Source: Spirochaetota bacterium
GTDB taxonomy: Bacteria; Spirochaetota; UBA4802; JAFGDQ01
Direction: 5' to 3'
Assembly: GCA_034190085.1 (NCBI GenBank)
Contig: JAXHTS010000066.1
Location: forward strand, 1-56,423
Length of the DNA stretch: 56,423 bases
Made by a program: the position numbers and the translations under genes
Notes under the pieces: model-generated
Seen by the model: the letters and a program-made list of their open reading frames with translations, nothing else
What the model was told of the DNA's origin: nothing
The model's database searches: none
Part shown: piece by piece, positions 1,505-33,510 of the stretch
Layout of the letters: each line of letters opens with the position of its first letter
How positions within the stretch are numbered: position 1 is the first letter of the stretch

Positions 1505-4028
1505 CTATCCCAATCCCTGTATAGTCCTCTGAATAATATTGTCCTGTGTTTTACGGCTGATATCCACAAAATGTGCGCTGTAACCCGCAACACGTACTAT
1601 CACCTCCTGGTACTGCTCAGGATCCTTCTGCGCTGCCCTAAGCGTTGCATCATCCACCATATTGAACTGTACATGATCAAGTCCCAGATCCGACCATGTC
1701 TTCATGTACGCCTTCCATAATTGATAGCCCTTCTCACCAGAGAGCTGTGTTGGTGAAAGACGCTGGTTCAAAAGAAAGGCCCTGCCATCGCTTACATGGT
1801 CTATCTTCCCACAAGACTTCAATACAGCCGTAGGCCCCTTCTTATCGAGCCCGGGACCAGGTGATATGCCTCCATCATAAAGCGCATCTCCCAACCTCCT
1901 ACCACTGGGAAGAGCGTGAACCATATTTGAAAAGTGTATGTTGCCACTAATGTTCTCAGGCAAAGCAGGCCACGTATTCCCTGAGGGACACCTTATCTCC
2001 CTGGAATGCCTTGCAACCTCTCTCAAACAGCGCACCATCATATCATCCGCATAATCATTATCATTTCCCCACTTAGGGGCATTATTCACAAAGTCAAGTC
2101 GCATCTCCTCCTTGCCTTCCCAGTTATTCTCCAGCGCATCCACCAACTCCTCCATCGCGTATCTCTTCTCATCAAAGACTAATCTCTTTACAGCCGCTAG
2201 GCTATCTACATTCTCAACCCACGTGAAGAAGGTTACCCAGGCATTGCCCCCTCTCAAGAGATGGCACCAACGCATCAAGACCACTCTCTATTGACTTCTC
2301 AGAGATTGCTGAGAGAAAGGGACGACCCCAATTCTCTGGACTCTTCACTCTAGCACGATTTGCTATCCGTACACCAAAATTCATTAACCACTCCATCTGT
2401 TTTACCCAAGCTGCAAATAACTCCTCAAAATCAGTAAACTTCCTCGCATCCCCTGTCCTTGGCCCCATCTGCATCTTTACTATATGATCATAACCACTAT
2501 GAAGGGCATACTCGACCATCTTTGAGCAATTCAGTGTCGCAGTAGCCATACGACATGGCTGAGCACCACGCTTCGTTGTTGGACATGGTGACATGCAGGC
2601 CTGATGTACCCAGAGCCTCATCTCATCCAGCGGATGACTATGCCAATGCATCCCATTTGCTATCAGAACAGGGTCATTCCGTATACTCGGATACCCCAAT
2701 CCGTGTCTAATGCACTCAAATACCTCCCTCCAAACCTCATCTGACACTCCTGGATGCCACCTGAATCCAAATGTCGGATTGGATACCCGAACAAACCTCG
2801 CCGCCTGCAAAAAGGCAATGGTCAAATCATTGCAGGCATCACTTCCATCAGAATTCACTCCTCCCAAGGTCCATACCCATGTGCCGGATATGCCCTGAGC
2901 TGCCTCAGACCCAAATCTCGGAAGGTAATGTCCCAACTCATAGCAACGGATCAAGAACTCCCCAACAAAATCAAGCGCCTCCTCCTTCGTAATATGCTTC
3001 TCTATATTCACATCCCTATTATAGTAAGACCAATGATAGTAATCCGGACGGGCTGGCCATGCTGACTCAAAGTCCTCGAATCTTGTCCATACCTGAATAA
3101 AATGATCGTACTGAAACGACTCCTGCAAGTTCCTCGGTGGCTTTGCAGGTACCCTCTCACATGTCTCAACAATACTCAAAAGCTCCTCCTTCCTCTTAGT
3201 ATCGGATTCAAAGCTCTCTGCTATAATCCGCGCCAACCTTGCGTATCTCTTTGCATTCCTGATACAGGCCTCCAATATAATCTGCATGGCCTCCCAATTC
3301 GGTAGCTTATCATATAGGGGAAGGATATCAGGCCCTGGATTGCCATCTATCCGCTCCTCCGCTCCGTCTATCCTCTGCTGTATCTCTTCGATTATCTCCT
3401 CAAATGCCCTCTTACCTGTCATGAAATACTCATATTCTTTTCCAGAATAACCAAAGCTGCCGCCGATAGGAACACCCCACATTAGAACAGTACTCATAAG
3501 CTTCACTGCCTCTTCACTGGAGAATTCTCTAAATATCTTACCTGTACTATCTCTCGTACCCCAATAATTGTTGATTTCAGCCATAGTCTTGAGAGATTCC
3601 TCCTCTGGCTCAGGGATTATAACTGGATCGTTGTATATCTCCTCATTGATGAAGCTTGCTAATTCACAATACCAAAAGACAGAGTTCGGAAGACTACCCA
3701 GATAGCCCACAAGCTGTGCATTATCAGTAATGAATATAGTAATATTATCAAGCACATGTGATAGGGCTTTCGCCCTCCTCAACATTATGGGATCATTTTC
3801 ACTCTCCTTCCAGGATTCAGTAAATAGCAACGGCCTCTCAATATCGATCTTAAGACCTGGTTCATACATCCCTCCCTTCTTCCCCTTCTTCCATACCGCC
3901 TTCCTCAAATAATCCAATCTCTCAGACCTCTTCTTCTCAGCAACCCACCACCATTCTCTACTATTCTCGAGTTCTTTTATATCCCTTTCCCGAGATGTAC
4001 CCCTAAAGTCCTTGGCTCGTGATTCCAT
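1505..4028 (-). pseudogene. Glycyl radical enzyme catalytic subunit (X-succinate synthase-like), single frameshift
   Basis: This gene would encode about 840 residues close in sequence to the product of 4307-6829. Reading from the ATG at 4028 (preceded by GGGAGG; a further ATG at 4043 overlaps that site), frame is lost at about 2250. There the minus strand has five G (plus 2247-2251), where four would keep SLERG-NAWVTFF in frame. The remaining part (2250-1505) is intact in the other frame. It includes the radical loop RVAGYSAHF and the C-terminal RTIQGLG. The active-site segment HQACMSPCPTTK lies in the first part. No other stop or frameshift was seen, so this is either a very recent lesion or a homopolymer error in the assembly. 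If the error explanation holds, the gene is an active second enzyme. Confidence 0.85.
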
Positions 4029-4183
4029 GTTACATCCTCCCATATTTATTTTTTTATCTAACTACTGCCATCATACCTCCAATAAAATTATCTATACATA
4101 AATTCCAACAAATCAGTTGTACCAAACATTAATATTTTAAATAATCTATATTATCTGGATCACAATTAAATAATCCATCAAAA

Positions 4184-4306: not shown

Positions 4307-6829
4307 CTAACCTAAGCCTTGTATAGTCCTCTGTATGATATTGTCCTGAGTCTTACGACTAATATCAACGAAATGAGCGCTATAACCAGCTACCCGAACA
4401 ATCACCTCCTGATACTGCTCTGGATCTTTTTGCGCAGCCCTGAGAGTAGCATCATCGATCATATTAAACTGAACGTGATCAAGCCCTAAATCAGCCCACG
4501 TCTTCATGTAAGACTTCCATAGCTGATAACCCTTCTCACCCGAAAGCTGAGTTGGCGATAAACGCTGATTTAATAAAAAAGACCTTCCCTCGCTTATATG
4601 ATTAATCTTACCACAGGACTTTAATACTGCAGTTGGCCCCTTCTTATCCAAACCAGGACCAGGTGAAATGCCGCCATCGTACAGGGCATCCCCCAACTTC
4701 CTGCCATTAGGAAGTGCATGGACCATACCCGAAAAATGTATATTGCCGCTCACATTCTCTGGCAAGGCAGGCCATGTGTTGCCAGATGGACACCTTATCA
4801 CACTTGAATGGCGCGCTGCTTCCCTCAAGCATTTAACCATTATCTCGTCCACTTCATCATCATCATTTCCCCACTTAGGAGCATTCTTCACAAAATCCAA
4901 TCTCATCCCCTCTTTCCCTTCCCAATTGCTCTCCAATGCATCCATTAACTCGTCCATCGTATACTTTTTCTCATCAAATACTAATTTCTTAACAGCTGCT
5001 AAACTATCAGCATTCTCCACCCAGGTAAAGAAAGTGACCCATGCATTGCCTCTCTCAATCGATGGCTCAAGAGCATCCATTCCAGTCTCAATACACTTTT
5101 CAGAGATGGATGATAAAAAGGGACGACCATAAAATTCGGGACTCTTCACCCGTCCCCTGTTTACTATACGCGCCGCAAAACTCATCATCCACTCCATCTG
5201 CTTCACCCATGCAGCAAAAAACTCTTCAAAATCAGCAAACGTCCTTGCATCTCCAGTTTTCGGGCCCATCTGCAATTTAATACAATGATCAAATCCATTA
5301 TGCAGCGCATACTCAACCATTTTTGAAGTATTCAATGTTGTTGAAGCCATACGACATGGTTGAAAACCATATTTGGTAGTTGGACAGGGCGACATACATG
5401 CCTGATGAACCCAAGTCCTCATCTCTTCAAGCGGATGGCTGTGCCAGTGCATCCCATTCGCTATTAAAATAGGATCATTCCGAATGCTAGGATATCCTAA
5501 ACCTTGTCGTATACATTCGAATACCTCCCTCATCACATCATCTGAAACCTTAGGGTGCCACCTGAATCCAAAGGTAGGGCCAGAGACTCTTACAAGCCTT
5601 GCTGCTTTTAAAAGCGCTAGGGTCAAATCGTTGCATGCATCGCTACCATCTGGTTTCACTCCCCCAATAGTCCATATCCATGTTCCAGATATGCCCTGAA
5701 CCCCCTCAGACGCAAATGAAGGGACATACATACCCACCTCATGGCAACGAATCATGAACTCCCCTACAAGATCAAGCGCTTCCTCCTCTGATATCTTCTT
5801 ATCAATCTTTACATCTCTATCATAATAAGGCCAGTGATAATAATCTGGACGAGATGGCCAGGCGCCTTCAGCATCCTCAAATCTACTAAAGATTTGTATA
5901 AAATGATCAAACTGCAAAGATTCCTGAAAACTCCCCGGTGGCTTAGCTGGAACCCTTTCACAGGTCTCTGCTATGCATAAGAGTTCTTCTTTCCTTTTTG
6001 GATCTGACTCATAATTCTCTGCTATTATCCTGGCTAATCTAGCAAATCTATTCGCTGTCCTAATACATGCCTCAAGAATTATCTGCATTGCCTCCCAGTT
6101 GGACAGCTTGTCATATAACGGTAGAATATCTGGCCCAGGATTCCCATCTATTTTTTCCTCAGCATCATCTATTCTTTCCTGTATCTCATCAATAATATCC
6201 TCCAATCCTCTTTTGCCATTCATAAAATACTCATAGTCCTTTCCAGCGTAACCGAAACTCCCACCAACAGGAATACCCCACATTAGGACTGTACTCATCA
6301 ATTTCACAGCCTCCTCGCTGGAAAACTCACGGAAAACCTTTCCCAGATTATCCCGCGAACCCCAGTAATTATTAAGATCAACCATAACCTTAAGCGACTC
6401 ATCCTGTGGTTCGGGTATAATAACTGGATCATTATATATCTCATCATTAACAAAACTAGCTACGTCTACATACCAGACAAGCGTATTTGGAAGACTCCCC
6501 AAATATCCCACAATTTGTGCATGGTCTGTGATATGAATAGTAATATTATCAAGGACATGGGCTACAGCCTTGGCCCTTCTCATCATTATGGGATCATTTT
6601 CGTTCTCCTTCCATGATTCAGTAAAGAGGAGTGGTCTCTCTAAATCTACTTTAATACCAGGTTCATACATCCCTCCCTTTTTACCCTTCTTCCAGACTGC
6701 TTTTCTAAGGTAATCAAGCCTCTTCGACCTCTTCTTCTCAGCAACCCACCACCATTCTCTATTATGCTCCAATTCCTCGATACTCCTTTTCTGCGAAAAC
6801 TCAACATCCCTACCTATTTCTGGTGCCAT
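4307..6829 (-). CDS. Glycyl radical enzyme catalytic subunit, fumarate-adding (alkyl-/arylsuccinate synthase) type
   Basis: This 840-residue protein is probably the large subunit of an enzyme that adds a substrate radical to fumarate. The PFL-like barrel spans roughly residues 30-690 and the glycine-radical domain 700-840. The radical loop RVAGYSAHF places the radical on Gly815. The active-site motif HQACMSPCPTTK places the thiyl cysteine at Cys478 (Cys482 is the nearby alternative). The Cys-Gly spacing and the MSPCP signature are those of BssA/AssA-type enzymes, not of PFL, diol dehydratase or isethionate lyase. GGAGGT upstream of the ATG supports the start. Two small Fe-S subunit genes lie upstream in the same orientation, as expected for this family. 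The hydrocarbon or other substrate cannot be read from the sequence, and no activase gene is nearby. Confidence 0.88.
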   Translation of the reverse strand: MAPEIGRDVEFSQKRSIEELEHNREWWWVAEKKRSKRLDYLRKAVWKKGKKGGMYEPGIKVDLERPLLFTESWKENENDPIMMRRAKAVAHVLDNITIHITDHAQIVGYLGSLPNTLVWYVDVASFVNDEIYNDPVIIPEPQDESLKVMVDLNNYWGSRDNLGKVFREFSSEEAVKLMSTVLMWGIPVGGSFGYAGKDYEYFMNGKRGLEDIIDEIQERIDDAEEKIDGNPGPDILPLYDKLSNWEAMQIILEACIRTANRFARLARIIAENYESDPKRKEELLCIAETCERVPAKPPGSFQESLQFDHFIQIFSRFEDAEGAWPSRPDYYHWPYYDRDVKIDKKISEEEALDLVGEFMIRCHEVGMYVPSFASEGVQGISGTWIWTIGGVKPDGSDACNDLTLALLKAARLVRVSGPTFGFRWHPKVSDDVMREVFECIRQGLGYPSIRNDPILIANGMHWHSHPLEEMRTWVHQACMSPCPTTKYGFQPCRMASTTLNTSKMVEYALHNGFDHCIKLQMGPKTGDARTFADFEEFFAAWVKQMEWMMSFAARIVNRGRVKSPEFYGRPFLSSISEKCIETGMDALEPSIERGNAWVTFFTWVENADSLAAVKKLVFDEKKYTMDELMDALESNWEGKEGMRLDFVKNAPKWGNDDDEVDEIMVKCLREAARHSSVIRCPSGNTWPALPENVSGNIHFSGMVHALPNGRKLGDALYDGGISPGPGLDKKGPTAVLKSCGKINHISEGRSFLLNQRLSPTQLSGEKGYQLWKSYMKTWADLGLDHVQFNMIDDATLRAAQKDPEQYQEVIVRVAGYSAHFVDISRKTQDNIIQRTIQGLG

Positions 6830-7902: not shown

Positions 7903-8265
7903 TCACTTTTTCATCTGTCTCTGATGTCGGCTAACCATTGGATCAAGTGATTGTGATATATCTGTATCTATCAATTCCAGCTCATCATAATATTTACAAT
8001 TAGCTGCATCATTATTGAAACCCACTGCCAAAAAGGCCTCTCCCTCTGTCACAAATACTGGATTATCAGTTTTAAAATCTGTGCCCTCCTTCAATACATT
8101 GCATATACCGCTCACTGTGCCCAAACCGGCCTGAAAATAATTCTTACATTTGCCACAGGCCTTATCAGGAACGGTCTCCCTCTCTTCCACACTTCTAGCC
8201 TTCTCGCTGGTACCTAACATCGCTTCCCTTACTCCATCCCATTCACTTCCTCTTTTTCTTGGCAT
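7903..8265 (-). CDS. Small Fe-S subunit of a glycyl radical enzyme (BssB/BssC-like), copy 1
   Basis: This 120-residue protein has four cysteines (Cys37, Cys40, Cys55, Cys90) in the order CGKC, GICNVL, NCKYYDE. The pattern CxxC, one Cys about 15 residues on and one about 35 further is that of the small HiPIP-like subunits that carry a [4Fe-4S] cluster in benzylsuccinate synthase-type enzymes. The identical MPRKRG start and the shared SVEERE, DTDISQS and RHQRQM segments make it a paralogue of the product of 8998-9351. It lies upstream of the catalytic genes in the same orientation, but with a 1.07-kb gap holding a GRE relic. Its role in stabilising or protecting the catalytic subunit is inferred from the family. 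Confidence 0.75.
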   Translation of the reverse strand: MPRKRGSEWDGVREAMLGTSEKARSVEERETVPDKACGKCKNYFQAGLGTVSGICNVLKEGTDFKTDNPVFVTEGEAFLAVGFNNDAANCKYYDELELIDTDISQSLDPMVSRHQRQMKK

Positions 8266-8997: not shown

Positions 8998-9351
8998 CTA
9001 CTTCTGCATCTGTCTCTGATGACGACTAAACATCGGATCATTCGATTGTGATATATCTGTATCTATTATTTCCATCTCATCATAATAGGTGCATTTACTA
9101 GCATCCATATTAAACATCGTAGGCAAGAAGACTTTACCCTCTGTAACAAATACAGGCGGTTCAACTGTAAAGTTAGTACCATCCTTTAAAACATTACATA
9201 AGCCATTACCAGAAATTTGATAAAAATTCTTGCACTTACCGCAAGCCTTCTCCGGGACATTCTCCCTCTCCTCAACACTTCTGGTTTTTTCGCTCATATC
9301 TAACATGGCATCTCTTGCGCTATTCCATTGAGCTCCTCTTTTCCTTGGCAT
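8998..9351 (-). CDS. Small Fe-S subunit of a glycyl radical enzyme (BssB/BssC-like), copy 2
   Basis: This 117-residue paralogue of the protein at 7903-8265 has cysteines at 37, 40, 52 and 87, fitting one [4Fe-4S] cluster. The N-terminal MPRKRG, the SEKTRSVEERE segment and the tail RHQRQMQK are almost the same in both. It differs mainly in the loop before Cys52, which is three residues shorter. In known fumarate-adding enzymes the beta and gamma small subunits are only distantly alike. Two close paralogues here are better read as partners for different catalytic copies than as beta plus gamma of one enzyme; this is inference. A purine-rich GGAGG-like site precedes the ATG. Confidence 0.75.
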   Translation of the reverse strand: MPRKRGAQWNSARDAMLDMSEKTRSVEERENVPEKACGKCKNFYQISGNGLCNVLKDGTNFTVEPPVFVTEGKVFLPTMFNMDASKCTYYDEMEIIDTDISQSNDPMFSRHQRQMQK

Positions 9352-9986: not shown

Positions 9987-10331
9987 TCAGAAATAAAATA
10001 TCCTCAGCTTGAGCACCATTACCAGCAAGACAGCCCCTAAAATCATCAATAAGCCAAATAGCACTTTCTGTAGTGTAACCCTCTTACTGAGGTCCAATAT
10101 AATCACGCGAAGACCTAATACAGCATGAAAGCATACACAGAGTGCCATTAAGGTTTGGATTAAAACCTGATAAGGATATACGAGATGAAGTGTCACAAAT
10201 ACAATAATACCTAAAGCAGAAAATCTCTGCAAAAGCCATGCCCACATCCCAATTTGCGTCGAACGCCACTCAGACAGGGTGAGCACCTCCCTTTTGTTAA
10301 CTATATCACCACTATTTTTAACGTCTTCCAT
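9987..10331 (-). CDS. Succinate dehydrogenase membrane anchor, SdhC/SdhD-like
   Basis: This 114-residue protein has three hydrophobic segments (about residues 29-48, 52-72, 84-108). The first carries QRFSALGIIVFVTLHL, and the second FHAVLGLRVIILDL, a histidine-glycine-arginine arrangement typical of SdhD-type anchors that bind heme b and quinone. GGAGG 7 nt upstream supports the ATG. It is the last gene of the operon with sdhA, sdhB-Rieske and cytochrome b-c, separated from the last by about 130 bp. Only one anchor gene is present where many SDHs have two. Either it works as a homodimer or the fused cytochrome b supplies the remaining quinone site (inference). Confidence 0.75.
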   Translation of the reverse strand: MEDVKNSGDIVNKREVLTLSEWRSTQIGMWAWLLQRFSALGIIVFVTLHLVYPYQVLIQTLMALCVCFHAVLGLRVIILDLSKRVTLQKVLFGLLMILGAVLLVMVLKLRIFYF

Positions 10332-10462
10332 TATTTGCCTCCATATTTATTATATTGCCAGACTTTATTAATCCTGTATAAAACAACATTTCAATATATT
10401 TGCTGCCAATAGTGACAATTCCAAATAATTCAATCCATATTATTCTATAAACTATAATACAA

Positions 10463-11962
10463 TTAAATACTCTTCTCTTCTTCCCCTTTGTCATTTGTTG
10501 TGGAGACAATATCCTTTTTAAGATATACCTCATCTGTCTTTCCACTACCAATCCCAGACCTATATAGCTTATAGGTGCTCCTAAATACAGACGGTTCAAC
10601 TGTTTTTATATTATATTTCATTAAATCGATGCTTGTTACATAACTAACTAAAGCATCAAGATCATATTTATCGAAATAGTATTTTATCATCTTTCCCTTA
10701 CCCAGTACCTTATCTGGATCCTTGAGTAGGTCTTCAACAAATTTCTTATCCCTCTTAGCGCCGACCTTCCAAAGATCAGGGGCATGCTTCATTCCCACAC
10801 CCTTAATGCTATGACAACAGTAACATACATTCTTTTCAAAGATTGCCATGCCTGCAAGCTCCTTAACCTCAAGGGTACGATCTGGAGCAAAGAACTTGCC
10901 TGGAAGGGGGCTGGATATATGAGCTATAAGAGTAAGATAACCTGCGATAATGATTGCTGACACACCTGAAGCAATTGCAATAGGTCTTTTCAAATAGGCC
11001 CTCTCTTCATTTCTGTCATAAAAAGGCAATAACAATACAAGGGCACCACCTATTACAGGTACTACCGCCAATGCAATTATTATCAACTTTCCCTCAAACA
11101 TCTTTATTATCTCATATCCAAAGAGGATAAACCACTCAGGTTTAGGCACTGAATCAATATCCGCTAACGGAGAAGCCTGCTTTGCCTCATGCACACCAGC
11201 AAATTTTGCAAGTACTATCAACAATACAAAGGCAAGAATAACTACTATTACATCCTTTGCAAGTTGGTAAGGGAAAAACGGTTGTGTGCCCACATCACCC
11301 TTCTCCTTTTTAGGAGGAGGCCCTTTCTCCCCATGAATCTGAATCATCAAGATGTGGATAGCCAGAAAGCCTGCTAGCCCCAATGGGATTAACACTATAT
11401 GAAAGGCGAAATACCTTCCTAAGGTTACACCCCCGGTCTGTTTGCCACCAACGACATTTGCGATCCAGGAGCCGACGACTGGAATATAATCAAAGGTTGT
11501 TGCGAGAATCGTTACCGCCCAATAGGAGATATCAGTCCATGGTAGTATATAACCTGTAAGAGCCATTGCCATTGTTGCTCCAAGGAGAAACACCCCAGCT
11601 ATCCAGGTTACCTCATTGGGCTTTTTATATCCACCATCAAAGAAAACCCGCGCCATGTGAAGCATAACAACAATTAACATCAAATTTGAGCCCCAATGGT
11701 GTATTCCTCTTATAAGCCATCCCCAGACCATCTCATTCTGAATATACTGCGTGCTACTGTATGCGCTCTCAATTGTTGGCACAAAATTACAAGCTAATAT
11801 AATTCCTGTAACAACCTGCGAGATCAATAAAAATAGGGCCAAGGCACCTAATGTGTGCCACCAGCTTATATCCTTGGAAAGCGGCTTATAAATAACCTTT
11901 TCCTTTAAAAAGTCCCAAAGTAACCGATCATCAACCCATCTTTTTTTCTGAACTGGTTCCAT
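10463..11962 (-). CDS. Cytochrome b (b6 plus subunit IV type) fused to a C-terminal cytochrome c domain
   Basis: This is the 499-residue core of a bc-type quinol oxidoreductase. Heme b ligands are visible as His88-x13-His102 and His188-x14-His203; the 14-residue second spacing is the b6 type. The quinol-site motif PEWF is at 275-278, in the subunit-IV-like half. After the last membrane segment (about 330-347) comes a heme c domain with CYCCH at 380-384, and Met425 as a possible axial ligand. So b6, subunit IV and cytochrome c are one chain. The ATG lies 3 nt after the stop of the upstream sdhB-Rieske gene, with a GAGGAAG site inside that gene, so the two are translationally linked. The cytochrome c domain should face the periplasm and take electrons from the Rieske head. 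Confidence 0.9.
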   Translation of the reverse strand: MEPVQKKRWVDDRLLWDFLKEKVIYKPLSKDISWWHTLGALALFLLISQVVTGIILACNFVPTIESAYSSTQYIQNEMVWGWLIRGIHHWGSNLMLIVVMLHMARVFFDGGYKKPNEVTWIAGVFLLGATMAMALTGYILPWTDISYWAVTILATTFDYIPVVGSWIANVVGGKQTGGVTLGRYFAFHIVLIPLGLAGFLAIHILMIQIHGEKGPPPKKEKGDVGTQPFFPYQLAKDVIVVILAFVLLIVLAKFAGVHEAKQASPLADIDSVPKPEWFILFGYEIIKMFEGKLIIIALAVVPVIGGALVLLLPFYDRNEERAYLKRPIAIASGVSAIIIAGYLTLIAHISSPLPGKFFAPDRTLEVKELAGMAIFEKNVCYCCHSIKGVGMKHAPDLWKVGAKRDKKFVEDLLKDPDKVLGKGKMIKYYFDKYDLDALVSYVTSIDLMKYNIKTVEPSVFRSTYKLYRSGIGSGKTDEVYLKKDIVSTTNDKGEEEKSI

Positions 11963-11965
11963 AAT

Positions 11966-13225
11966 CTATGCTTCCTCCAAATTCCGAAGATAGAGTTCTC
12001 CTCCCTCAACCTTAACCTCTAATCGCTCCAAAGGCCTAGGCGGGGGACCTACAACTACTTTCCCATCTATATCAAATGCACCCCCATGGCAAGGACACAT
12101 AAATTTACGTATTGAATCTTCCCAATAACAAATACAACCTAAATGTGTACAGGTTGGATCAATTGCGCTAATTTCGCCCTTCTCATTTTTCACAACATAG
12201 GCTCTCTTAGGATAGGTGACAAGACGGCCCTTCTCCCATTTCTTCCTCTCATAAATCACCTCGGCTGGCTTATTGACATCGACCTCTGGCATTGCGCCAA
12301 CATTAATCCATCCCTTCACCCATCCACGTACCCCCTTGCTAAGCAAGGGTACAGAAAAAACACCCGCAAAAACCGCCGCGACAAGGCCAGCGCCTCCCAA
12401 AAACACTGTCTTCAAGAAACTCCTTCTCTCTAAAAGAGACTCACCGGGCGCTGAAGGTGGAGGAGGGGTTATCGACCTAACCTTTCCGCCTTCCTGTTCC
12501 TTCAACTCATTCTTCTTCTGCGACATAAAGGGATACAATACAGCCTGCCTCTTTAGATGATTAACCGCTTCTGTAGGACGCAACTCTTTTGGACAGGCAT
12601 CAGTGCAACGAAGCTCAGTATGACAACGCCATATCCCTGATTCCGAAATTAGATTCAGAAGCCGCTCCCTTCCCTCTGCATCACGATCATCCTTGAGTTT
12701 GGCATCCGCGGCCAAAAACGCAAAAGGGCCCGGGAAGTCAGGATCCCAACTGCACATTGTACATGCGGCATAACAGGAACCACATAGAATGCACTCCACT
12801 AGACCATCCAATTCTTTACGATTTTTTTTAGATTGATAAAACTCTTTATTTTCTTGAGGTATCTCCTTTGGTATGAGATAGGGTTCAACAATTTCATATT
12901 TTCTATAAAAATCTGTCATATCAACAACCAAATCTTTTAATAACGGAAGGTGAGCAAGCGGCTCAAGAACTACTTTTTTAGTTTTTAAATTCTTTACAAT
13001 AGTGCGACAAGCAAGTCCATATCGACCATTTATTTTCATTCCACAAGAACCACAAACTGCCGCCCGACAGGAACATCGATAGGCAATGCTTGAATCAAGA
13101 TTTTCCAAAATATAAAATAGACATTCCAATACAGTTGTGTCACTCTCTACAGGCACTTGGAACACATCATATCGAGGTTCTTTATCCACATCTGGATCAA
13201 ATCTTAATACTTTAAACTCAACCAT
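11966..13225 (-). CDS. sdhB: Succinate dehydrogenase iron-sulfur subunit fused to a Rieske protein
   Basis: This single 419-residue chain has two modules. Residues 1-240 are SdhB: [2Fe-2S] ligands Cys53, 58, 61 and 73, [4Fe-4S] ligands Cys145, 148, 151 and 211, and [3Fe-4S] ligands Cys155, 201 and 207, all at standard spacing. A proline-rich linker (about 253-265) leads to a twin-arginine-like segment, ERRSFLKT, and one membrane helix (about 272-296). Then comes a complete Rieske domain with CTHLGC (359-364) and CPCHGG (377-382). The start is the ATG at 13225, with GGAGGT at 13237-13232. An upstream in-frame ATG at 13297 lies inside sdhA and lacks this support. sdhA ends one base earlier. SdhB would sit in the cytoplasm and the Rieske head outside, joined across the membrane. 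Confidence 0.92.
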   Translation of the reverse strand: MVEFKVLRFDPDVDKEPRYDVFQVPVESDTTVLECLFYILENLDSSIAYRCSCRAAVCGSCGMKINGRYGLACRTIVKNLKTKKVVLEPLAHLPLLKDLVVDMTDFYRKYEIVEPYLIPKEIPQENKEFYQSKKNRKELDGLVECILCGSCYAACTMCSWDPDFPGPFAFLAADAKLKDDRDAEGRERLLNLISESGIWRCHTELRCTDACPKELRPTEAVNHLKRQAVLYPFMSQKKNELKEQEGGKVRSITPPPPSAPGESLLERRSFLKTVFLGGAGLVAAVFAGVFSVPLLSKGVRGWVKGWINVGAMPEVDVNKPAEVIYERKKWEKGRLVTYPKRAYVVKNEKGEISAIDPTCTHLGCICYWEDSIRKFMCPCHGGAFDIDGKVVVGPPPRPLERLEVKVEGGELYLRNLEEA

Positions 13226-13226
13226 C

Positions 13227-14939
13227 CTAATACCTCCTCTCTTCTGGCTGCCATTTTGTGACAGATACTGACTTATAAGAAAGTTTTGGTCCATCATCAG
13301 TGCATTTCGCTACAGTATGCTTCATCCACTTCTTATCATCCCGTTTCTCAAAATCCCTTCTATAATGAGCGCCACGAGACTCTTCACGCTTTAGCGCTCC
13401 TAACGTAATCACCTCCGCCATATCAAGATTCGCCTTTATCTCTAAAGTCCAGGTCTTATCATAATTAAAAACATTACCTTTACTGATTGATCTTATATTC
13501 TTAAACCGCTTCTTCAACTCCCTTACATGGTTTAAGGCAGATGTTAAACCTTCCTTGTTTCTAAAGACCTGCACCTTTGTATCCATTACTTCATGCAACT
13601 CATCCTGAATATGATATTGATTCTCTGTTCCTCCACGATTGTACAACTCATCCAATTCCGCCTCTTTCTTCTTCAATACATTCTTGATAATTCCATCCTT
13701 CTTGGAAGCGCCCTTCCCCTTTACAATATTACCAACATAATCCCCAACCCTTGCTCCAAATACCACACAATCCAAAAGGGAGTTTCCACCGAGCCGATTA
13801 GCGCCATGCACGCTCACACAAGCGCACTCTCCACAAGCATAAAATCCTTCCATCTCTGTCTTGCCATCAGCGTCAGCATCTATACCACCCATAGTGTAAT
13901 GAACCGCTGGCCGAATAGGAATAGGCTTTTTAATGGGATCAATTCCCAAAAATTCTATACATATCTCTCGTATTCCAGGAAGTCTCTCCATTATCTTCTC
14001 AGCTCCCAGATGTCTCAAATCTAGATGAACATAATCGCCTTTATCTATCCCATGTCCCTCGTTGATCTCTGTCATAATGGAACGTGCGACCATATCCCTG
14101 GGAGCAATCTCCATATAATTCGGGGCATACTTTTTCATAAACCGCTCACCCTCATTATTAATAAGGTAGCCCCCCTCTCCTCTTGCCCCTTCAGATATTA
14201 AAATATTTTTCCCAATTATACCGCTGGGATGAAACTGAACAAACTCCATATCTAATAGTGGTATGCCCGCCCAATACGGCAAAGTAACACCCAATGCAGT
14301 TGAACTATAAGAATTTGTTGTATGTCCATAGATTCTGCCCGAACCTCCCGTTGCGAATATTACAGCATGCCCAAGAAAAATTTCAAGCTTCCCTGTTCGC
14401 ATATTAAAGCATGTTACACCCTTACAAACCCCATCATCGACAACCAACCCTATAACATAATATTCATCATAGAGTACGACATGATCCTTTAATGTAAGGT
14501 ATTTCTGAAACAGGGTATGAAGTATAAAATGACCTGTCCGGTCAGAGCCATAACATGTTCTTGGGAAGGCCCCACCGCCAAATGGCCGTTGAGCTATTGT
14601 GCCATCCTCCTCCCTTGAAAACGGGCATCCCCATTGCTCTAACTCCCTAATCCTATCAGGAGCCTCTTTGGTCATAATCTCAATTGCATCCTGATCTCCC
14701 AAAAAATCACTTCCTTTAACAGTATCGTAAGCATGCCTTTCAGCGCTATCATCCCTCCCTTCAGGATTATTGCCCAGTGAGCCATTTATTCCACCCTGAG
14801 CCTGCCCGGAATGTGATCTTATTGGATATATTTTTGATATCCAACCAACATCAACACCAAGAAGGCCTGCTTTATCCACCGCCATATTGCCAGCAAGACC
14901 TCCACCTACAACAAGCAGTTCATGCGAATGAGCCTCCAT
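13227..14939 (-). CDS. sdhA: Succinate dehydrogenase / fumarate reductase flavoprotein subunit
   Basis: This 570-residue flavoprotein interconverts succinate and fumarate. The N-terminal FAD fold has [11 protein letters not shown], and the FAD-linking histidine lies in [17 protein letters not shown]. Active-site elements are the HPSG motif, the RDMVARSI arginine, and [28 protein letters not shown] matches the family near the C-terminal FAD contacts. It is the first gene of the operon. Its stop (13229-13227) is one base from the ATG of sdhB-Rieske, whose ribosome binding site lies in the last sdhA codons. The company of a bc-type complex argues for the succinate-oxidising direction. Next to a fumarate-adding GRE cluster it could regenerate fumarate; that link is inference. 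Confidence 0.93.
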
Positions 14940-30008: not shown

Positions 30009-31049
30009 TCACCTCTTTTTACCTTTCTTTGCTCGGTAGTCTTTTATATGACCCAAAACCTCATCTAAGAGTTCCCTTGAATACACCTTACCAGCCATAT
30101 TATCCCATACTGGCCTCGTCCTCTTTTTGAAAACCTCAATCTCCTTAGGAGTCATCTTTACCTCAATACAACCATAATCAATCATACCCCTCTTAGCTTC
30201 TTCTGATAGTGTAACCGCTTCTTTTTCAAATATTTTCTCAACCTTCACCCATAATTTCTGAATACCCTTCTGCTGATTCGACGGTAGTTTGTTCCACTCC
30301 TTCAGTAATACGATAAATACAGCCTGATCATATCGAATTGGAATTGGATTCAAATACTTTGTAATTGGATAAAGTTGCGCAGCCAGCCACCAGATAGAGG
30401 GTGATATAGCTCCATCTACCACACCTGACCTCATGGAAGGCACAACCTCAGGGACATTTACAGGAATTGGACTCGCTCCAAGAGCCTTTAACACCTCCAC
30501 TTCAAGAGGGCCATGCCAAGTAAGAAATTTGCTTTTTTCGAAATCCTCAGGTCGCCTCATTGGATATTTCGCCGAATAAAAATGTTCATCAAAGCTTCCC
30601 ATTGCTAATAATTTAAATCCATTCTTTTCCGTCAATTTATATATTGTAGGCCTTATCTTCTCCCTTACATGACAGACTTCCTCTAAATCATTAAAGATGA
30701 AGGGTAGCTCCAATACAGATATTCCGGGACATACCATTGCATTGGACGTTCCTGAAATCATCGCCCCTTGCAGTTGACCAATCCGCATCTTAGCCACATA
30801 ATCCTCTTCATCTCCCATCACTCCACCCATATACCAGACAAATTTTAGATCACCATTAGTCAATTTTAGAACATCACGCGTCATATCCACGGTCAAAATA
30901 CTCACCATCTTTATTGTATCCTGACCCAGGGTTGCCCATTTCCATACATGCTTAGGCTTTTTTGCCGCAATTACCTTTGAAACACAAAACCCAACTAGGA
31001 ACAATCCCAATAAAACTGACGAAAACAAATAAATTCTCCTCTTCTTCAT
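30009..31049 (-). CDS. dctP: TRAP transporter substrate-binding protein, DctP family (paralogue B)
   Basis: This 346-residue periplasmic receptor has a signal segment at about residues 7-27. It is very close to the products of 361-1395 and 32485-33510: KWATLGQDTIKM, KFVWYMGGVMGDEEDYVAKM, LTWHGPLEVEVLKALGASP and VPSMRSGVVDGAISPS. The last contains the family arginine expected to bind a substrate carboxylate. It lies 230 bp upstream of MmgE/PrpD on the same strand and 82 bp downstream of paralogue C. Ligand unknown. Confidence 0.92.
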   Translation of the reverse strand: MKKRRIYLFSSVLLGLFLVGFCVSKVIAAKKPKHVWKWATLGQDTIKMVSILTVDMTRDVLKLTNGDLKFVWYMGGVMGDEEDYVAKMRIGQLQGAMISGTSNAMVCPGISVLELPFIFNDLEEVCHVREKIRPTIYKLTEKNGFKLLAMGSFDEHFYSAKYPMRRPEDFEKSKFLTWHGPLEVEVLKALGASPIPVNVPEVVPSMRSGVVDGAISPSIWWLAAQLYPITKYLNPIPIRYDQAVFIVLLKEWNKLPSNQQKGIQKLWVKVEKIFEKEAVTLSEEAKRGMIDYGCIEVKMTPKEIEVFKKRTRPVWDNMAGKVYSRELLDEVLGHIKDYRAKKGKKR

Positions 31050-31130
31050 TTAAATACCTCCCCTCTTTCTATATTTATATATATCTAATTAGCATATCAT
31101 ATTCAAATTTAACTTCTGATTTTGAATTAC

Positions 31131-32174
31131 CTAACCCCTCCAATCCATTGCACGATACATTTCCAAATGGTTCATCACTTCATCCAACAATTCCTGAGAA
31201 TATACCCTTCCAGCCACCATTTCCCAAAGTGGCTTTGTCTTAATTCTAAATAACTCGATCTCCTCTGAAGTCATCTTGACTTCCTCACATCCATAATCAA
31301 TCATCCCCTGAAGCGCATCAGTGCAGACTTGACGACCTTCATTGTTTAAACGATTCTCTACATCTGATGCGATAATTAAAATAGCTGTCTTATATTTATC
31401 AGGGATTCTATTCCATGTCTTCAATAAGACTACAAATAATCCTGTGTCATATCTAATTGGAATAGGATTTATATACTTTGTAATACGATAGAGTTGTGTT
31501 GTTAACCACCAGCAGGATGGAGATATGCAACTATCCACCACACCTGCCCTTATTGAAGGGACAATCTCTGAAATACTCAATGGAACTGGCGTCGCCCCAA
31601 GAGCCTTTAATAACTCCACCTCCAAAGAGCCGTGCCATGTTAAAATTTTGCTCTTCTCAAAATCCTCAGGTGTCCTTAAGGGATATTTTGTTGAATATAG
31701 ATGTTCGAAACCTACATCTATCATTGCTATGACCTTGAATTTATTTTTTTCTGCAATTTTATCTATCCTAGACCTCATCTTTTTTCTAACATATATCACC
31801 TCATCCCAATTATCAAAGAGGAAGGGGAGTTCTAATACAGATATACCAGGACATATAACCTCATTTATAGGTCCAATAATCCCAGCTCCCTGCAATTGAC
31901 CACTCTTCATTTTCTCGATATAATCCTTCTCATCTCCCATTATGCCTCCACCATACCAGACAAATTTCATATCCCAATTAGTAGTTTCCATAACCCTTTG
32001 AGTAAAATATAGTGTTAAAATATTTATCATTCTGATTGTTTCCTGATTATGCATAGCCAACTTCCAAACATACTTAGGCTTTCTATCCGCCATTAAGTTG
32101 GTTATGCTATAACTACAAATAAGTAATCCCAATAAGACTAAATATAATTGATTTAATCTCATCAACTTCATCAT
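31131..32174 (-). CDS. dctP: TRAP transporter substrate-binding protein, DctP family (paralogue C, divergent)
   Basis: This 347-residue receptor has an N-terminal hydrophobic segment (about 8-28). It keeps the family frame (LTWHGSLEVELLKALGATP, VPSIRAGVVDSCISPSCWW) but is clearly the most divergent of the four. NQETIRM replaces GQDTIKM, GIIGPINEVICPG replaces the usual AMISGTSNA region, and DSCISPSCWW adds two cysteines where the others read DGAISPS. These changes fall around the predicted ligand pocket, so it may bind a different acid. It is the middle gene of three adjacent receptors. Confidence 0.88.
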   Translation of the reverse strand: MMKLMRLNQLYLVLLGLLICSYSITNLMADRKPKYVWKLAMHNQETIRMINILTLYFTQRVMETTNWDMKFVWYGGGIMGDEKDYIEKMKSGQLQGAGIIGPINEVICPGISVLELPFLFDNWDEVIYVRKKMRSRIDKIAEKNKFKVIAMIDVGFEHLYSTKYPLRTPEDFEKSKILTWHGSLEVELLKALGATPVPLSISEIVPSIRAGVVDSCISPSCWWLTTQLYRITKYINPIPIRYDTGLFVVLLKTWNRIPDKYKTAILIIASDVENRLNNEGRQVCTDALQGMIDYGCEEVKMTSEEIELFRIKTKPLWEMVAGRVYSQELLDEVMNHLEMYRAMDWRG

Positions 32175-32484
32175 AAATACCTCACTTTTATTTATGATAT
32201 AATTGTAACACTCTTTAACATTGCAATGTCGTAACGTTTTGGAGGGATTAGCAATTAGACTAAGGTGTGGGAAAGAGATGGAATAATTCTTTCTTAATAA
32301 GCCAAAGACATAGAATATATAATATATTCAATAGCGATTAATTATGTGAAGCCAATAATCTCTCAATTATTCTTCACTTCCCCAATTTTTTTATCAATAG
32401 ACTTAATCCTCTCCCCCGAAAAGTCATTACCTCAAAAGGAAAAAGCAATATCCCCTATTTAATTACATCACCGTTATCAACAGG
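32175..32484. other. Gap with a hairpin between two TRAP receptor genes
   Basis: No gene is seen. GTGAAGCCAATAAT (32346-32359) and ATTATTCTTCAC (32366-32377) form an imperfect stem about 110 nt after the stop of the receptor gene 32485-33510. No T run follows on the minus strand. It could attenuate or stabilise the transcript between the two receptors. Confidence 0.35.
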
Positions 32485-33510
32485 CTATCGCTTTCTGGCT
32501 CGATACTTATTTCTATGTGCCAATACTTCCTCATATAAAGCCTTGGGATACAGCTTTCCAGCCATATTATCCCAAACTGGTCTGGTCCTCTTCTTGAAGA
32601 CCTCAATCTCCTCAGGTGTCATCTTTACCTCTGTACATCCATATTTAATCATTCCTATTTTTGCCTCCTCCAGCACCTTATAAGTCTCGCGATCAAAGGT
32701 CTTCTCTAATTTTATAGCTATCTGCTCAATAGCTTTTCTCTGAGAGACTGGCAGCTTAATCCATTCCTTCAATACAACTATTATAACACCCGTATCAAAC
32801 CTAATAATTAGTGGGTTGATATACTTTGTTATTGTGTAGAGTTGCGCAGCCAACCACCAAGCGGATGGAGATATTGCTCCATCGACAACACCTGATCTCA
32901 TTGATGGAACAACCTCTGGCACGTTTACAGGAATTGGACTAGCCCCAAGAGCCTTCAAAACCTCAACCTCCAGTGGGCCATGCCATGTCAATATTTTACT
33001 CTTCCTAAAATCTTCTGGATTTCTTAAGGGATATTTTGCTGAATAGAAATGCTCATCCAAACATGCCATAGCTAATACCTTAAAGCCATTTTTTTCAGAA
33101 ATTTTTTCAATTTTAGGCTTCATCTTATCTCTTACATAACGCGCTTCCTCATAACTATCGAAAAGAAAAGGCAGCTCCATCACAGATATCCCAGGACAGA
33201 CAGTTGCATTAGATGTTCCTGTAATCATTGCCCCTTGCAGTTGACCAATCCTCATCTTTGCAACATAATCTTCCTCGTCTCCCATCACCCCGCCCATATA
33301 CCAGACAAACTTAAGATCCCCATTCGTTGCTTTTAGGACATCCTGGGTAAAATCTACTGTGATAACACTTACCATTTTAATTGAGTCCTGACCCAGCGAT
33401 GCCCATTTCCAAACATACTTTGGCTTTTTTTCAGCCATTAAGATAGATAAGCAAAAAGCAAAAAGCAGAAACCCTGATAAAAATACTAACGAATAAACCA
33501 TCCTCCTCAT
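32485..33510 (-). CDS. dctP: TRAP transporter substrate-binding protein, DctP family (paralogue D)
   Basis: This 341-residue receptor is the first gene of the TRAP operon. A signal segment (about 5-26) precedes KPKYVWKWASLGQDSIKM, KFVWYMGGVMGDEEDYVAKM, LTWHGPLEVEVLKALGASP and VPSMRSGVVDGAISPS, so it is nearly interchangeable with paralogue B over most of its length. Differences gather in the C-terminal third. Such close duplicates point to recent expansion, either for dosage or for related ligands. GGAGG-like AGGAGGT lies just upstream of the ATG. Confidence 0.92.
   Translation of the reverse strand: MRRMVYSLVFLSGFLLFAFCLSILMAEKKPKYVWKWASLGQDSIKMVSVITVDFTQDVLKATNGDLKFVWYMGGVMGDEEDYVAKMRIGQLQGAMITGTSNATVCPGISVMELPFLFDSYEEARYVRDKMKPKIEKISEKNGFKVLAMACLDEHFYSAKYPLRNPEDFRKSKILTWHGPLEVEVLKALGASPIPVNVPEVVPSMRSGVVDGAISPSAWWLAAQLYTITKYINPLIIRFDTGVIIVVLKEWIKLPVSQRKAIEQIAIKLEKTFDRETYKVLEEAKIGMIKYGCTEVKMTPEEIEVFKKRTRPVWDNMAGKLYPKALYEEVLAHRNKYRARKR

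Follow-up and report, generated by a model that had tools for sequence, protein, structure and literature searches.

A predicted SdhB-Rieske fusion links succinate dehydrogenase to a cytochrome b complex in an operon beside alkane-activation genes of a Spirochaetota bacterium

One operon encodes succinate dehydrogenase and a Rieske/cytochrome b complex

The stretch of DNA analyzed here (contig JAXHTS010000066.1 of Spirochaetota bacterium assembly GCA_034190085.1, 56,423 nucleotides; hereafter, the window) carries on its minus strand, at 9987-14939, an operon in which SdhB of succinate dehydrogenase (SDH) and a Rieske domain are encoded as a single polypeptide. All four open reading frames (ORFs) of the operon are present, in the transcription order sdhA, sdhB-Rieske, cytochrome b-cytochrome c and an SdhC-like membrane anchor. 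The predicted composition of the operon, the co-expression of its genes and the physical joining of SDH to a Rieske/cytochrome b complex are all well supported by the sequence. The consecutive genes are separated by 1, 3 and 131 nucleotides, and each is preceded by a strong Shine-Dalgarno sequence (-10.7, -13.4, -9.3 and -9.3 kcal/mol, respectively). The initial annotation of this DNA had described four tightly packed genes, the first three lying 1-3 nucleotides apart. This is correct for the first three but not for the SdhC-like gene, which lies 131 nucleotides away. We looked for a missing anchor gene within this longer gap and found a single ORF (10318-10599), which partly overlaps the last part of the cytochrome b-cytochrome c gene, starts with TTG and has no recognizable anchor motif; we judged it to be a chance occurrence.

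Domains were assigned using Pfam. SdhA, SdhB, Rieske and cytochrome b were identified securely; the evidence for the anchor and the cytochrome c domain is adequate. The flavoprotein SdhA (13227-14939, minus strand, 570 residues, Shine-Dalgarno sequence AGGAGGGG) matches FAD_binding_2 (4.3e-100) and Succ_DH_flav_C (9.2e-40). Its score against TIGR01812 (740.6 bits, cut-off 567.3) places it among the complex II flavoproteins that bind flavin adenine dinucleotide (FAD) covalently through a histidine. The FAD-histidine motif SHSGQAQGG and the catalytic HPSG, HYT and RGEGG are all preserved.

The sdhB-Rieske gene (11966-13225, minus strand, 419 residues) encodes the Pfam domains Fer2_3 (7e-34, residues 4-107), Fer4_8 (3e-8, residues 144-214) and Rieske (3e-11, residues 314-400). 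Its SdhB part scores 268 bits against PRK05950 (cut-off 228) and retains, as expected for complex II, the cysteine motifs of the 2Fe-2S, 4Fe-4S and 3Fe-4S clusters, namely cysteines 53/58/61/73 of the 2Fe-2S cluster, CILCGSCYAAC at 145-155, and C158, C201, C207 and C211. The tryptophan and histidine of the quinone site (W160 and H202) are also kept. The SdhB part was modeled with a predicted local distance difference test score mostly above 85 and superposes on E. coli SdhB (1nek_B) with a TM-score of 0.90. Its closest relatives in sequence are the SDHs of E. coli and mitochondria (187.4 bits for E. coli SdhB), compared to 106 and 102 bits for the fumarate reductases of Wolinella and Desulfovibrio and 71.6 bits for SdhB of the class F SDH (7d6v_B), a weak match; with E. 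coli FrdB, too, the score is good (166 bits). A different arrangement of SdhB was seen in four same-phylum genomes, in which homologs of 328-337 residues carry a conserved C-terminal extension of around 90 residues past the last cluster.

The two halves of the fusion are predicted to lie on opposite sides of the membrane

SdhB occupies residues 1-232 of the fusion and is followed by a linker (233-266), a twin-arginine motif (RRSFLK, at 267), a membrane helix (approximately 274-292) and the Rieske domain (314-400). The linker of around 34 residues is rich in proline and was modeled with low confidence. Both Rieske motifs, CTHLGC (359) and CPCHG (377), are intact (C359, C364, C377 and C379). Together with the membrane helix at its N-terminal side, they identify the second half as a true Rieske protein, though one that, unlike the other members of the family, is joined to SdhB. 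It is the only Rieske protein found in the genome; this and the other genome-wide statements rest on family searches in a genome that is 96% complete.

The positions that in bc1 complexes hold the serine and tyrosine raising the potential of the Rieske cluster are occupied here by Gly382 and Phe384. Loss of these serine and tyrosine residues in yeast drops the potential by 130 and 65 mV (PMC12954380), and that paper also shows an exception to the tyrosine rule. Because both residues are replaced, the potential of the cluster is likely lowered, a prediction that would suit menaquinol as the electron donor.

Since a signal of the twin-arginine translocation (Tat) type and one helix separate the two halves, the prediction is a cytoplasmic SdhB and a periplasmic Rieske domain. 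Each half requires this placement for its function, which makes the fusion a sensible one. With their clusters on opposite faces of the membrane, electrons would pass from SdhB to Rieske solely via quinone, and not along the chain. The fixed succinate:cytochrome c oxidoreductase that had been proposed initially thus survives as a tether but not, given the predicted topology, as a wired path.

The cytochrome b-cytochrome c fusion (10463-11962, minus strand, 499 residues; Cytochrome_B 1.5e-47, Cytochrom_C 1.1e-5) corresponds to cytochrome b6 plus subunit IV in one chain of approximately seven helices, followed by a C-terminal monoheme cytochrome c domain. The match of the subunit IV part to Cytochrom_B_C (7e-4) is just under the cut-off. 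Four histidines form the two pairs that bind hemes b (88 or 89/102 and 188/203), and their distances of 14 and 15 residues are of the b6 type. PEWF of the Qo site is found at 275, so that all hallmarks of a cytochrome b are in place, and a single heme c motif (CYCCH, at 380) provides the exit for electrons that cytochrome c or f provides elsewhere. The core was modeled well and matches the cytochrome b fold, and the nearest solved chains are cytochrome b of bc1 and cytochrome b6. By sequence comparison, the cysteine that binds the extra heme of b6f is missing; two relatives appear to carry it. Overall, inspection of the motifs in the four chains indicates that almost all of the cofactor sites initially reported as intact are so.

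The SdhC-like anchor (9987-10331, minus strand, 114 residues; Sdh_cyt 3.8e-8, above the cut-off) has three predicted helices, two histidines and the conserved motifs QRxS and HAxxGLRxxxxD, and matches SdhC of Mycobacterium smegmatis Sdh2 (6lum_C) with an E-value of 1e-3. It is the only Sdh_cyt protein over the cut-off in the genome. No SdhD-like partner was found there; one may have diverged, or may be encoded in the 4% of the genome that is missing. What had been annotated as an SdhC/D-like anchor is hence one three-helix SdhC-like subunit with no SdhD-like partner in the genome. It differs from a complete complex II anchor, which consists of SdhC plus SdhD or of a single SdhC with five to six helices, and also from the five-helix diheme SdhC with four conserved histidines of type B SDHs.

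A possible route from succinate to periplasmic cytochromes

We consider it rather probable that the four genes specify a single membrane complex, or two complexes tethered to each other, which would act as a succinate:menaquinone and menaquinol:cytochrome c oxidoreductase, oxidizing succinate to fumarate and delivering the electrons to a periplasmic cytochrome c in order to regenerate fumarate. SdhA and SdhB would sit on the cytoplasmic face above the SdhC-like anchor and reduce menaquinone, and the tethered cytochrome b would oxidize the resulting menaquinol at its Qo site. From there, one electron would reach the fused cytochrome c by way of the Rieske domain while the second would be recycled through the hemes b. 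The fused cytochrome c would then hand its electrons to a network of periplasmic multiheme cytochromes. The purpose is suggested by the position of the operon: the fumarate produced may replace that used by the alkane-activating enzyme MasB/MasD, which is encoded next to it. Formation of alkylsuccinates consumes fumarate, whose regeneration is an accepted need (PMC7673041; PMC9576796). Oxidation of succinate by menaquinone is uphill, and a co-located menaquinol oxidase would pull the reaction forward.

The genome offers few other candidates for these functions. Apart from a weak match to a ferredoxin domain, no second SdhB was found over the threshold. As the fusion and the anchor are the sole SdhB, Rieske and SdhC of a nearly complete genome, its SDH and Rieske/cytochrome b functions depend on these genes. 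Syntrophic propionate oxidizers, which use menaquinone, carry out the uphill oxidation of succinate by means of a diheme SDH powered by the membrane potential (PMC10308238). The SDH described here is not of the diheme kind, because its SdhB is nearest to that of E. coli and mitochondria and its anchor is small.

The genome also encodes possible routes for the electrons downstream. Genes of the futalosine route to menaquinone are present, including the decarboxylase, above its cut-off. Neither a heme-copper oxidase nor DsrAB or any other member of the sulfite-nitrite reductase family was found by the family searches of the genome. At another locus (L093, contig C40 of this genome, 6252-9457), a 26-heme lipoprotein and a 16-heme cytochrome lie beside a SurA-like isomerase and futalosine menaquinone genes, and this cluster is a possible outer-membrane electron conduit. 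Several smaller multiheme cytochromes, a [NiFeSe] hydrogenase flanked by cytochromes, formate dehydrogenases and a QrcB-like protein complete the picture. Electrons from the fused cytochrome c would most likely enter the periplasmic multiheme pool. By analogy with Geobacter, in which bc-type complexes oxidize menaquinol for extracellular transfer (PMC12307469), they could then exit the cell.

Several points weigh against the proposed route. The fused protein is a prediction from the genes; cleavage could separate its halves, or each half could become part of a complex of its own. The fusion is known from one assembly alone. By the standards of E. coli, the SDH half appears incomplete, with half of the quinone site missing, and the sequence does not tell whether the reaction runs as SDH or as fumarate reductase. 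For lack of homologs, the models of the cytochrome c domain and of the Rieske half are of low confidence, and no argument about geometry is drawn from them. The family searches yielded no final electron acceptor, and the candidate ORF for the porin of the L093 conduit matches no porin family, which leaves the conduit unconfirmed.

The most serious alternative, though in our view an unlikely one, is that the fusion acts as a genetic tether only. SDH and the Rieske/cytochrome b complex would then be ordinary, separate complexes communicating through the free menaquinone pool. The linker would be cut or neutral, and the fusion would serve to fix stoichiometry or assembly. Consistently with this, the cofactor sites of each half look complete without the other, the proline-rich linker modeled with low confidence is what a flexible or cleavable stretch would look like, and relatives use separate Rieske/cytochrome b and SDH systems. 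However, the Rieske domain must either take the Tat pathway with SdhB attached or be excised before export, which would be odd without a selected joint function. Moreover, the SDH half, with its one small anchor, may depend on the other half.

In a more radical reading, the two halves would form one electronically integrated enzyme, in which cytochrome b takes the place of the absent half of the SDH anchor. SdhB would pass its electrons to heme b at the cytoplasmic face, and they would then cross the membrane. As in diheme type B SDHs, the membrane potential would thereby drive menaquinone reduction by succinate, an uphill step, while the Rieske arm and cytochrome c would draw electrons off. 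The missing SdhD-like subunit leaves room for this idea, which we regard as quite improbable.

The fusion reads as one open frame and is known from a single genome

We inspected the junction between sdhB and Rieske. It lies in one open frame, in agreement with the initial reading of the two modules as the same polypeptide, and several stop codons close both other frames. A very unlikely alternative is a genuine operon with a spurious fusion, in which overlapping sdhB and Rieske genes were merged by an assembly or sequencing error or by a recent single-base change. The fusion was indeed seen in a single genome, its homology to SdhB stops almost exactly at a possible ATG start for Rieske (Met 234), and indels do occur in this contig, where a masD copy (1505-4043) is frameshifted. 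However, homopolymers at the junction do not exceed three nucleotides. Upstream of the internal ATG there is hardly any Shine-Dalgarno sequence (-2.7 kcal/mol, compared to a stronger -4.1 at the median position in the operon), whereas all four genes of the operon have strong ones. Furthermore, a Rieske protein started at Met 234 would have 33 residues before the twin arginines, compared to approximately 8-16 in the separate Rieske proteins of relatives (17-25 residues longer). This longer N-terminal region argues that the join contains an added linker. Even if the genes were separate, the sdhA-sdhB-Rieske-cytochrome b operon would stand.

No SdhB-Rieske fusion was detected in any of the 392 other genomes sampled from the phylum or among 72,556 plasmid records. 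A pattern-based scan covering 84,980 species genomes, whose reach is limited to close relatives, likewise found none. Genome contigs (again with a reach of close relatives), plasmids and viral contigs returned unfused SdhB, SdhA or nothing. Most relatives in the phylum have no Rieske/cytochrome b system at all. Those with the pair encode a separate Rieske protein (approximately 157-181 residues), and the cytochrome b gene that directly follows it lacks the heme c motif. Separate genes in relatives had been named initially as a sign that the join might be an assembly artifact. Relatives do keep sdhB and Rieske apart, which points weakly in that direction, but none of them was seen to carry this operon, so their separate genes do not show an assembly error. 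A locus with SdhA and cytochrome b genes 4 kb apart was considered as a related system and rejected, as neither SdhB nor Rieske lies between them.

We also rejected the possibility that the contig was assigned to the wrong genome. The gene rlmN, two genes upstream of the operon on the same contig, is approximately 54-69% identical (mostly > 60%) to rlmN of genomes of the same order, compared to around 40% for the rest of the phylum. The contig belongs to the genome's own order.

Alkane-activation genes adjoin the operon

The operon sits directly upstream of the genes masB-masB-masD on the same strand, a context absent from the initial annotation. The first gene downstream of the operon (8998-9351, minus strand) encodes a MasB-like small subunit of 1-methylalkylsuccinate synthase (PDB 9o8u_B, E-value 1.6e-17), and a second MasB-like subunit is encoded at 7903-8265 on the same strand (9o8u_B, 4.8e-17). 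The gene masD (4307-6829, minus strand) encodes the catalytic subunit, a glycyl radical enzyme (Gly_radical 5.9e-29) with the radical motif VRVAGYSAHF. It scores 1327.5 bits against MasD (9o8u_A) and only 484.8 bits against the benzylsuccinate synthase TutD. Both subunits expected of a 1-methylalkylsuccinate synthase are thus encoded.

These neighbors bear on a last, highly improbable alternative, in which the system works in the reverse sense as a fumarate reductase linked to menaquinol or cytochrome c, with cytochrome b bifurcating quinol electrons to cytochrome c and, via SdhB, to fumarate: the indifference of the SdhA sequence to direction, and the similar bifurcation proposed for those Rieske/cytochrome b complexes of Kuenenia whose cytoplasmic module is an NAD(P) oxidoreductase (PMC12954380), would allow it, but the adjoining enzyme uses fumarate and returns succinate, so that net fumarate reduction would oppose it, and SdhB resembles the SDHs of E. 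coli and mitochondria more closely than the fumarate reductases of Wolinella and Desulfovibrio, the good score of E. coli FrdB notwithstanding.

At the level searched, MasD is absent from the 392 other genomes of the phylum. Since this genome alone of 393 carries both MasD and the fusion, the two may have been acquired together.

The frameshifted masD-like gene at 1505-4043 (minus strand) consists of two overlapping ORFs with an apparent extra G in a short G run and has almost no Shine-Dalgarno sequence; it is either a decayed copy or the product of a sequencing error. Another contig of the genome carries a tandem array of three masD-like ORFs, the middle one of which is 86% identical to the copy in the window. 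The window also hosts, at 361-1395 and 30009-33510 on the minus strand, four paralogous solute-binding proteins of tripartite ATP-independent periplasmic (TRAP) transporters, three of them in tandem, with a T-component lipoprotein and membrane subunits nearby. Four such paralogs are unusually many for one contig, and they perhaps import hydrocarbon-derived acids.

Comparison with known systems

Of the respiratory complexes, complex II is the one most rarely seen in stable supercomplexes. To our knowledge, none of the known systems that we compared carries SdhB and Rieske in one chain. We found no description of an SdhB-Rieske fusion in the openly accessible literature that was searched, in line with the initial annotation, which knew of no described complex of this composition. 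The individual parts are ordinary, while their combination is not.

The SDH half resembles canonical complex II (E. coli sdhCDAB) in SdhA and SdhB, including the motifs for FAD and the 2Fe-2S, 4Fe-4S and 3Fe-4S clusters and the quinone-site residues W160 and H202. It differs from it in that SdhB runs on into a Tat-exported Rieske protein and that a single SdhC-like anchor was found, with no SdhD. The other half shares with bc1 and b6f complexes a b6-type cytochrome b with two heme-b histidine pairs and PEWF, the Rieske ligands and one heme c. Here, however, cytochrome b, subunit IV and cytochrome c form one chain, Rieske is attached to SdhB, and Gly382 and Phe384 replace the usual residues.

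The mycobacterial class F SDH (Sdh1, PDB 7D6V; PMC10238741) also combines SDH with a Rieske-type cluster. That cluster lies inside the six-helix membrane anchor and no bc complex is involved, whereas here a true, predictedly periplasmic Rieske domain follows SdhB behind one helix. The Rieske/cytochrome b complexes of the anammox bacterium Kuenenia are similar in principle, as their core has its own cytochrome c and is extended by an oxidoreductase module in the cytoplasm, again in a menaquinone organism (PMC12954380). Their added module is an NAD(P) oxidoreductase rather than SDH, and the accessible part of that paper describes no such fusion to a Rieske module.

If the fused protein is made, it would offer a natural test of whether quinone channeling between complexes II and III is useful. 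If the proposed route is true, it would show how an anaerobe relying on menaquinone handles the uphill step from succinate to fumarate that every hydrocarbon degrader using fumarate addition faces. Were the two halves instead one electronically integrated enzyme, they would represent a new route of succinate oxidation with menaquinone, selected for fumarate recycling in anaerobic alkane degradation. The supercomplexes of Perkinsus (CII2CIII2CIV2, PDB 9fq7) and Tetrahymena (PMC10227065) likewise hold complexes II and III together, but they are eukaryotic, non-covalent and composed of many subunits. In the predicted fusion described here, a bacterium would have joined complex II to a bc complex covalently.

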